Shown here: piece by piece, positions 26,480 to 60,100 of the stretch | How the letters are laid out: each line of letters opens with the position of its first letter | How positions within the stretch are numbered: position 1 is the stretch's first letter | Origin: Axinella damicornis | Taxonomy: Eukaryota > Porifera > Demospongiae > Axinellida > Axinellidae | DNA: 64,000 bases | Assembly (NCBI GenBank): GCA_963931865.1 | Contig: OZ007512.1 | Location: 1-64,000, forward strand | Reading direction: 5' to 3' | Translations under genes and position numbers: made by a program | Notes under the pieces: generated by a model | Told to the model about the DNA's origin: nothing | Database searches by the model: none | What the model saw: only the letters and a program-made list of their open reading frames with translations

Positions 26480-26511
26480 TAGTCTCGCGGGCGTCTGGCC
26501 CCGCGAGACTA
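26480..26511. mobile_element. 32-bp micro-hairpin insertion with 9-bp TSD
   Basis: TAGTCTCGCGGGCGTCTGGC continues to CCCGCGAGACTA: two inverted TAGTCTCGCGGG arms with almost no interior. It is flanked by GCTTCGTGG at 26471-26479 and 26512-26520, a perfect 9-bp direct repeat. Confidence 0.8.
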
Positions 26512-26857
26512 GCTTCGTGGGGTCTGTCCAAGCGATCGGCCAGCATGCCCTGCTATGGTCACTTCGTGCAGCGAGCGAATGAAAAAAGCTCAGAGAAAGG
26601 TGTGTCAGTCCTTATACTTGAATCAATGGTGCCAGGTGGTATCGACGACATATTAACGACATAAAAGTATGGTGGAGGCGTACAAAAGTGACAAGAATCG
26701 TCTGAAAAGTCACAAGAATCATCCGAAAATGATAGGAAACGATAGTGATTCTCTCCACTCCTCCAAACAACACTGGGTCACCTATCTCCAGCAGGGACAT
26801 GATTGAGCAGTTGCAGGTCACTAGTCACAAGTCTGAGTTCAGTTAGTGCAGCTGAGG

Positions 26858-57100: not shown

Positions 57101-60100
57101 TCCCTCCACACCTCCTCCTTCCTCCCTCTCTTGCTCCTCGTTACTGCCTCCCTCCACACCTCCTCCTCCCTCCCTCTCTTGCTCCTCGTTACTGCCTCCC
57201 TCCACACCTCCTTCCTCCCTCCCTTACACGTCCTCTTTGCTTCCTCGCTTCCACCACACCTCTCCTGCTCCTCATTGCTGCCTCCCTCGTCACTGTTTCT
57301 CTGCCTCCCTCCATGCCGTTCTTCATCCCTCGTCACTGTCTCTCTGCCTCTGTTCCATTCCCCCAGGGCTACTGGCAACCGGATGGGGACATGCATCGCT
57401 ACCATGTTGCCATCAAGGTGCTGAATGCAGAAACCGCCTCACCCGAAGCTAGCAAGGAGCTGCTGCAGGTTAGCCAATGCCTAACATGTGACGCTAAACT
57501 AATTCCCTCTTCTGCCTCCTATACACGCTCTGCTAAAACACTCATATTTAAACACGTGGTTCTTCAATAAATCCAACAGAGTTGATATGTAGATCGCAGT
57601 GAACAGCACCTCACATAGTGTTAGATTGAGGTGTGGCTGGCAACGAAAGCACAGAGCACACCTTCCCGTCGGATTTCGTGGGAACTAGGCACCCCAGATT
57701 GGACAGCTGAGTGTTGAAAGGTTCACTGCAGCGTGGAGGATAGATTTGCTGTTACGGAGTTGGAGGTGCTGTGGGTATTAACACCATCCAGGTCCCAATA
57801 TCATGCTGAACGAGCCCCATGCAAGTAATTTAACGTGCCTTAATTAACACCAAACGACCGTAAATTTTGACCATTCTGATAATTAGAGTGAGTGCAGTAT
57901 ATTCATGGTAGTCCTCAACCTGATTCTAAACATCCTGTTGTAGAAGTTTTCATGTACAGTGTATAGGCAGTTTTGTTGTGTACAATTTGTCCCCAGCAGC
58001 CTGTTACTGGCTGCATATGTGCAGGTCAGAGCAAGCCTCGTTCCCAGTCCCACGCCCAGCTTTTCGCCGCTGCTTAGTACGGTAAAGTGGGGAGGGCCTG
58101 GTACATTTCCTCACGTGACTGACGTCAAGGGTAGAAAGGGGTAGGAAGACCGGAAGTTTAACGTGGGCGTAGTGGGTCTCAGAACAGCAAGAAGAGCGAA
58201 GGTACCAGGTAACTCACCTCACGTATCTAGCTAGCGGGGGGCGACTGTCATACTCACCGAGCGTTGAACGTGTAGATGGCTGAATAACACGCAAAACGTA
58301 GCGTCTTCGTTCTGAAAATTTTGCCATTTTTTGATTACGTCATGCTCACGTGAGGAAATGTACCAGGCCCTCCCCGCTTTACCATACTAAGCAGAGACGA
58401 AAAGCTGGGCGTGGGACTGGGAACGAGGCTAGGTCAGAGCTTAGTCTCAGTCTGGGCACGAGACTACTCAGAGCTGCAGTCCAGCGAGCTGTAGTACGCA
58501 GCCAGACTACTCAGAGCTGCAGTCCAGCGAGCTGTAGTACGCAGCCAGACTACTCAGAGCTGCAGTCCAGCGAGCTGTAGTACGCAGCCAGACTACTCAG
58601 AGCTGCAATCCAGCGAGCTGTAGTACGCTGCCAGACTACTCAGAGCTGCAGTCCAGCGAGCTGTAGTACACAGCCAGACTACTCAGAGCTGCAGTCCAGC
58701 GAGCTGTAGTACACAGCCAGACTACTCAGAGCTGCAGTCCAGCGAGCTGTAGTACGCAGCCAGACTACTCAGAGCTGCAGTCCAGTGAGCTGTAGTACGC
58801 TGCCAGACTACTCAGAGCTGCAGTCCAGCGAGCTGTAGTACGCAGCCAGACTACTCAGAGCTGCAGTCCAGTGAGCTGTAGTACGCTGCCAGACTACTCA
58901 GAGCTGCAGTCCAGCGAGCTGTAGTACACAGCCAGATTGTAAAGACTCCAGAGTTTCTGCTGCAGCTGACAATTCACTGACAACTACATGTTCCGTGGTC
59001 TGTACATACTGTGACTGTCAAACACACACACACATACACTGTACCATATGCAGGAGGGTGTTGTCATGGCAACAATGGACCATGACAATGTGGTGCGGCT
59101 GTACTGTGTGTGCATGGGCGAGCAGCTGATGCTTGTTTCACAGTTCGTTCCACTGGGCTCCCTGCTCTCCTTCCTGAAGAAGTACAAGGACTCGCTCAAC
59201 GCACACACCATCCTGAGCTTTTCGGTGCAGATTGCAAAGGTAAGAGTTCTGGCTGCAGGAGTGCGTTCTTGGGGGACAACGCAGTAGGCAAGATTGGTCA
59301 CCCAGCCCAAGGCTAGAGAAAGCACGAGTATTTTCTTGGGAAAAACACATGTAGGTATCAAACGCAGCCGTCTGATTGGTCAGTCCCATCCCAATACCAA
59401 TGGCTCTATGTCCCTTCATCAGTCAAGTGCATGCACACATGTCCCAGTATATGGTATAGTGGCCTGCCTATATGGAATTCCAAAGTGGACAAAATTGTGT
59501 CGCAGAATAAACATCGTGCTGTGTTAAAAATGCACAAAAACACTATGCTATGGTGCAAAACGCAGAGAAGTCATGCTCAAAATGCAGAGAAGTCGTGCTC
59601 AAAACGCAGAGAAGTCATGCTCAAAATGCAGAGACGTCATGCTCAAAACGCAGAGAAGTCATGCTCAAAATGCAGAGATGTCATGCTCAAAACGCAGAGA
59701 AGTCATGCTCAAAATGCAGAGAAGTCCTGCTCAAAACGCAGAGAAGTCATGCTCAAAATGCAGAGACGTCATACTCAAAACGCAGAGAAGTCATGCGCAA
59801 AATGCAGAAACGTCATGCTCAAAATACAGAGATGTCATGCGCAAAATGCAGACTAAAGCAGTGGCGGAGATAGTAGGACCAGTAGCGCTTTCAAGGAGAA
59901 CCAAAAAATGTATTTGACTCAGACCGTACACTCAAGGCAGAAATGCAAGCTGCATGTTTGAAATGTAAGAGCAACTTACATACCTTGACCGTTCGCGGGC
60001 TGAAAGCCTGAAGGCAGACATAGTCTTGGTTTAGGGGTTCAAGACGTCGTGAAGGATTGCACTGTACTACCTGGCAGCACCTCACAAACCCTTCCGTAGA

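Follow-up and report, generated by a model that had tools for sequence, protein, structure and literature searches.

The short palindromic insertions analyzed here lie in a 64,000-nucleotide stretch of the genome of the demosponge Axinella damicornis (the window; positions 1 to 64,000 of contig OZ007512.1, assembly GCA_963931865.1), and several described systems resemble them. Mutator-like elements (MULEs) generate target-site duplications (TSDs) of 8-11 bp (PMC6446971), and Muta1 of Aedes, with duplications of 8-9 bp, has a palindromic motif at its termini and numerous non-autonomous copies (PMC5225508). A 17-nt staggered cut is the hallmark of P elements (PMC7776569), and end joining after P-element excision in Drosophila leaves the TSD together with fused pieces of the terminal inverted repeats, connected by microhomology or filler nucleotides (Chan et al. 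2010, PMC2895639, Table 1). In Anopheles, non-autonomous P-derived miniature inverted-repeat transposable elements (P-MITEs) have multiplied beside transposase genes (PMC1562414), and repetitive hairpin-forming elements occur in sponge mitochondria (PMC2800124).

The sponge insertions share something with each of these systems. They are like MULEs in duplication length, and MULE transposase domains are present in this genome, but no MULE with the ends of the sponge family was found in the four loci read. Muta1 excision is reported to be mostly precise when the duplications are present (PMC5225508), whereas the sponge carries fused ends. The Drosophila end-joining products are palindromes of the same kind as the fused-end hairpins of the sponge, although they have an 8-bp duplication and a 17-nt limit (PMC2895639) where the sponge has 9 bp and no sharp limit. 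The sponge elements resemble the Anopheles P-MITEs as multiplied non-autonomous copies, but those measure 205-2450 bp (PMC1562414) and the short sponge forms 19-135 bp. The mitochondrial elements, too, are short hairpins dispersed within a genome of sponges (PMC2800124), whereas those described here occupy large nuclear contigs and have transposon ends. Within the portion of the open-licence literature that was covered (palindromic and sponge MITEs, excision relics and the end sequence itself; subscription journals lie outside this coverage), we found no earlier description of such elements.

The insertion family, with its inverted ends and TSDs of 9 and sometimes 10 bp, is real, abundant and unusual, and it shows the terminal inverted repeats and target duplication of fixed length of a MITE-like DNA transposon. 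We favor, with some reserve, the reading that most of its smallest members, the micro-hairpins, are relics in which the two ends of a longer transposon were fused, each independently, with the target duplication kept. All seven hairpins listed in an initial annotation of the window are present where it placed them, and the flanking 9-bp repeats are exact in six. Two micro-hairpins of 32 bp lie at 26480..26511 (exact 9-bp TSD GCTTCGTGG on both sides; no strand is assigned to this or any other feature) and 33994..34025 (exact 9-bp TSD GGACTCCGG), and one of 34 bp lies at 56097..56130 (exact TSD GGTCAGGAT). The 49-bp hairpin at 37110..37158, of end type ..GGAACCAGACCC, has the exact TSD ACGCTCACC, with 3 extra nucleotides (ATA) preceding the right copy, and 38612..38647 is a perfect 36-bp palindrome with the exact TSD ACCATGCAT. 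At 44261..44339, an apparently collapsed element of 79 bp is flanked by the exact TSD CCTCTGTAT and contains, between its ends, a telomere-type run of six AGGGTT units (44295-44330). The seventh, 25 bp long at 58442..58466, joins a short left piece to 17 nt of a right end, and its flanking repeats agree in 8 of 9 letters.

Two scans of the window place these insertions against background. Among hairpins with arms of at least 8 and spans of 16-110 in positions 11301-64000, an exact 9-bp flanking repeat was found in 3 of 306, versus 0 in 200 dinucleotide shuffles; the scan misses 38612, whose arm runs into its flank, and other hairpins with imperfect arms. The second scan was motif-free and asked for a 9-bp repeat with at most 1 mismatch around 12-bp inverted ends with at most 2 mismatches, 20-3000 bp in span. 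It returned 67 pairs, most in tandem or AT-rich repeats, and the non-repeat pairs comprise nine TAGYCTCG-type elements and a few others with one repeat mismatch.

The genome as a whole (226,483,885 bases in 120 contigs) contains 20,367 exact sites of the 18-nt end core TAGYCTCGTWCCCAGRCC, versus 0 for the reversed control. Inverted pairs of the form TAGYCTCG N0-30 CGAGRCTA (16-46 bp) occur at 3,496 places and pairs with N31-60 (47-76 bp) at 3,529, the reversed control giving 3 in either case; overlapping pairs and tandem arrays are included in these counts, and 11 of the 52 listed places of 47-76 bp belong to one array on contig C1. Flanks were read for 36 short pairs of up to 110 bp, two of which contain another of the 36, from 20 loci, each spanning 10 kb. 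Of these pairs, 18 are bracketed by a 9-bp duplication that is either exact (11) or has a single mismatch (7), and a 10-bp duplication surrounds another two. The initial annotation had proposed such a genome-wide search and named, as a finding that would count against it, palindromes flanked by no duplications above chance; the thousands of pairs and the 18 duplications in this sample point the other way. The 20 loci were chosen around hairpins of at most 46 bp, so this sample is mute on the relative abundance of sizes, on which the whole-genome counts are informative.

Elements bearing duplications cover the sizes between 19 and about 150 bp continuously, and the longer forms measure 399-1681 bp. 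We curated 37 short elements (19-135 bp), leaving out those above 150 bp, the repeats of tandem arrays (L025:5017 and the window series at 58442), the accidental or poor pairs L032:8056 and L035:2870, and the element of locus L001; 37110 was missed by the source scan and added, and the arm measure fails on it owing to its 3 extra bases. The loop is 4 nt or shorter in 15 of the 37, and many are near-perfect palindromes; locus L051 holds a perfect one of 92 bp. The ends of longer elements often contain core nucleotides 12-18 a second time, further in and inverted, which produces a terminal stem-loop; this is so at 26 of 49 ends, whereas the reversed motif occurs at 6 of 49 and a direct copy at 5 of 49. 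These figures omit one tandem array of 18 repeats, and with it they become 44, 6 (reversed) and 23 (direct) of 67.

Nearly all sampled short hairpins have different centers, and this argues for many independent origins. Of the first 50 listed hairpins of at most 46 bp, 49 are distinct, and the single repeat lies in a larger duplicated unit. The most alike pair of similar length among the 37 curated elements is 93% identical and differs at its center. Four hairpins of this size class were compared with the whole genome, and three have no identical copy: the 42-mer of L037 has no other place at up to 3 mismatches, the 32-mer at 26480 has one place at 1 mismatch (C7) and two at 3 (C10), and the 40-mer of L028 recurs at seven places that each differ from it by 2 mismatches. 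For the 36-mer at 38612, an exact copy lies on C14, with relatives at 1 mismatch on C2 and at 2 on C5, and three places at 3. Across the 50 hairpins and the four copy searches, the many near-identical copies at different sites that mark a multiplying MITE were not seen for hairpins of at most 46 bp.

The parents of these relics would belong to a large family of DNA transposons, of which only non-autonomous members were seen, with the core TAGYCTCGTWCCCAGRCC, often followed by the terminal stem-loop, and a TSD of 9 or sometimes 10 bp. In the collapse that we propose, a left end of about 8-30 nt or more would be joined to a right end, with loss of the interior and retention of the TSD. This would be a repair event, most likely microhomology end joining after a transposase excision break, in the course of abortive gap repair or imprecise excision. 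Most hairpins of at most 46 bp would then be inert relics at the old insertion site. The initial annotation had entertained fused ends, with the addition that they remain mobile; its view of the short forms as fused ends of longer elements agrees with the reading favored here, and continued mobility of most of them does not.

Some joins can be followed at the level of individual nucleotides. The end type TAGTCTCGGTACC contains the palindrome GGTACC, and two such ends joined there give exactly the 20-mer at 23265. The parent at L028:1344-3024 carries GGCC(A/G)CGTGGGAGG at its two ends, one of which reads GGCCACGTGGGAGG and the other GGCCGCGTGGGAGG. TGGGA in its left loop matches TGGGAACGAGGCTA of the opposite terminus, and a join at this match yields the observed 35-mer at L039:6958; the end sequences of this parent explain both that 35-mer and the 44-mer at L032:4956. 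The AGGGTT run in the 79-bp element at 44261 looks as junction filler would. More generally, two known ends fully cover 10 of the 31 short elements of at least 34 bp (15 of 37 overall) when the element's own ends are left out, compared with 16% (249/1550) when interiors are shuffled and a maximum of 8/31 in any of 50 rounds.

Several points weigh against the view that most micro-hairpins are independent fused-end relics. Sixteen of the 36 short pairs from the 20 loci have no clear duplication, and the 50 hairpins on which distinctness was scored head the list of 3,496 and come from a 3.5-Mb part of a single contig. The excess in end coverage is modest, with 21 of 31 short elements not fully covered; the known ends represent only part of the parents. 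The transposase, and hence the step that makes the break, is one that we infer. Slippage or cruciform cutting could yield some of the same products. Finally, the exact copy of the 36-mer at 38612, together with seven identical copies of a 55-bp hairpin, indicates that some short forms may have moved.

The 55-bp hairpin has 16 genome places at no more than 3 mismatches, of which seven, on five contigs, are letter-identical. Its exact 36-nt stem-loop occurs at ten places, namely the seven identical 55-mers and three others. Because few longer elements can carry this stem-loop, repeated collapse is an unlikely source of the 55-mers, and the pattern is hard to obtain in that way. Judged by its copy counts, the 55-mer seems to have multiplied as such and may be a genuinely mobile palindrome, in which a single stem-loop would probably retain what the transposase needs. 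The case of the 36-mer is different in one respect. Its 20-nt end is found at 17 genome sites, ten of them with no partner nearby (the presence of a partner being what was scored), so that this palindrome could form more than once independently. We tentatively suggest, as a possibility short of our favored reading, that a near-perfect palindrome measuring 55 bp, and perhaps one of 36 bp, can be inserted singly and as such by the sponge transposase, and that such palindromes would be continually created anew by collapse of larger elements and partly remobilised.

A broader form of mobility was advanced in the initial annotation, in which a transposase requiring only the outer 12-18 bp would insert the 25-79-bp palindromes as such. 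Exact duplications do flank forms of 19-57 bp, and the copy numbers of the 55-mer (with its stem-loop at only three further places), the exact copy of the 36-mer and the 1-mismatch copy of the 32-mer at 26480 are what such a transposase would leave. Nonetheless, we regard this account as unlikely for the micro-hairpins at large, given that 49 of 50 are distinct and three of four lack an identical copy, while the ten partnerless ends leave room for two independent origins of the 36-mer. What stands of the idea is the 55-mer, with its seven identical copies; for most micro-hairpins it is not supported.

Somewhat less probable still is a collapse that needs no transposase, in which the inverted ends form an extruded or folded-back structure, and the interior is lost through slippage during replication or through cutting by a structure-specific nuclease. 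Long inverted ends of the kind required do exist, and a jump across the stem is expected to produce zero-loop perfect palindromes, of which there are several (92 bp in L051, 36 bp at 38612). Yet the arms, measured against the core, are unequal in 30 of the 50 listed hairpins, seven of them at 18 versus 14, and many centers hold bases foreign to the core, as expected from end joining at a cut site.

Excision scars with the fixed 17-nt stagger of P elements, which would leave at most 17 nt of each end at the donor site, fitted the Drosophila data set and four window hairpins (33994, 38612, 56097 and 58442, which depart from the consensus end after nucleotide 17 on at least one arm) in a genome where P transposase domains do occur, but the genome sample largely refuted them and we give them very little credence: in 22 of 50 hairpins the best arm extends to nucleotide 18, where the core ends, and in 10 of 50 it stops at 17, no size peak appears near 34 bp (the classes of 16-46 and 47-76 bp have similar counts), the duplication is 9 bp rather than the 8 bp of the P superfamily, and in none of the P loci read is the domain enclosed by family ends that share a duplication.

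A source of transposase was sought in the window and in the genome. Pfam searches of the six frames of 11301-41302 detected no transposase, and the genome yielded at least 67 matches to the P transposase domain, whose relatives are widespread in animals (the named ones mostly from insects), and at least 51 to the MULE domain. No TAGYCTCG ends with a shared duplication surround the domain in five P loci (one family being represented by two copies) and one second copy, each read over 6-10 kb, or in the 7 kb around each of four of the MULE matches. Single family ends and complete small elements occur within some of these loci. In L044, an end of the form TAGTCTCG close to the P domain was a candidate until it proved to be part of a longer duplicated stretch whose flank recurs in L049. 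Two MULE loci have other ends and exact 9-bp duplications (L051:113-5569, GCGTTTTTTTT..; L053:1369-6042, GGGCGTATGG..). In L043, a hairpin of 49 bp at 3186-3234, bracketed by an exact 9-bp duplication of its own, is separated by about 200 bp from a P transposase domain. The duplications of 9 and sometimes 10 bp fall within the 8-11 bp of Mutator-like elements, and to that extent they agree with the Mutator-like affinity hinted at by the initial annotation; the matching ends it called for, with a shared duplication, were found round the MULE domain in none of the four loci. As no transposase locus read has family ends with a shared duplication, membership in any superfamily, Mutator-like included, is not established, and we file the family under none.

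Seven longer elements of the family lie in the window, and their TSDs are exact in four (9 bp in three, 10 bp in one), carry one mismatch in two and are absent in one. The five that had been annotated initially have like ends as described. Four of them have exact TSDs: a 609-bp element with terminal stem-loops at 35573..36181 (9 bp), a 454-bp element with TAGTCTA ends at 37957..38410 (10 bp), an 832-bp element with inverted ends of about 100-119 bp at 44383..45214 (9 bp) and a 399-bp element at 58033..58431 (9 bp), which adjoins the hairpin at 58442. The fifth, 609 bp at 40314..40922, has a 10-bp TSD with 1 mismatch. An 882-bp relative at 32410..33291 has a TSD matching in 8 of 9 positions, and a 599-bp element at 43242..43840, outside the initial list, has both ends present and no recognizable TSD. 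The long elements of the sample match their relatives along the whole length, the 399-bp element being 92% identical to L039:7068-7467 (399/400 bp) and the 609-bp element at 35573 being 91% identical to L026:1908-2541 (609/634 bp).

Two further arrangements involve insertions in the window. At three of them (targets 35493-35572, 37062-37109 and 37899-37956), 12-20 bp of the target sequence are already present a second time, 33-63 bp upstream. At 32119-32455, a partly inverted stretch of 245 bp separates two element ends in facing orientation, and the flanking bases match; this is perhaps a product of aberrant transposition.

The end core was also sought outside the host assembly. Of 13 matches to the end core in a prokaryote collection, only one, in L001, is a paired element with a duplication. 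This 147-bp element has the same ends and an exact 9-bp duplication and sits on a contig filed as a Poecilosclerida sponge symbiont, which is presumably host sponge DNA; the end family is therefore probably not confined to one sponge. L014, L015 and L016-L018 were considered as relatives and set aside, since they look like chance matches. Scans of viral contigs for relatives gave nothing sponge-like, and Rfam and tRNA scans of the window gave zero matches.

Collapsed hairpins appear to seed minisatellites. The array at 58461..58936 has a 43-bp unit that starts with the right end of the hairpin at 58442 (AGACTA) and its flank. In L025, an array running from position 5017 onward has a 20-bp unit made up of 12 nt of right end and 8 nt of flank, and a 43-bp array occupies 5392-6123. 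At G000 C1:1337821-1338855, hairpins of 49 bp are spaced at multiples of 58 bp (49 + 9).

Two hairpins of 20 bp that the initial annotation did not list are located on the two arms of one inverted duplication. The copy at 23265..23284 is a perfect palindrome, and its inverted-duplicate counterpart, a candidate hairpin at 15995..16014, has flanking 9-mers that differ at 3 positions. The duplication belongs to an 8.5-kb structure at 15091-23584, whose inverted arms (15091-16910 and 22367-23584) are 97-98% alike, the left one with about 600 extra bp, and whose interior is rich in tandem repeats. The window begins with 3.8 kb of telomere array, (CTAACC)n, at 1-3797, and a second block, of CCCTAA, lies 11 kb inward at 10986-11064. 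The intervals 45752-47608, 48461-49096 and 60843-61208 contain a Frizzled gene, in a single open frame, and, further on, receptor L and tyrosine kinase domains that probably belong to one receptor gene. The best-placed named relatives of the Frizzled come from the demosponges Halichondria, Amphimedon, Geodia and Dysidea, and the Frizzled of one close relative of the host is 95% identical.

If the interpretation of the micro-hairpins as collapsed transposons is correct, there are about 7,000 short inverted pairs of at most 76 bp (overlaps and arrays counted) in a single genome, a large part of which would be end fusions with intact TSDs. It would constitute a natural archive, in an early-branching animal, of how transposon breaks get joined. 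The same family would provide a test of the minimum size of a mobile element, and palindromes of 55 bp, perhaps of 36 bp, if they are indeed mobile, would be among the smallest mobile DNA elements of any animal.

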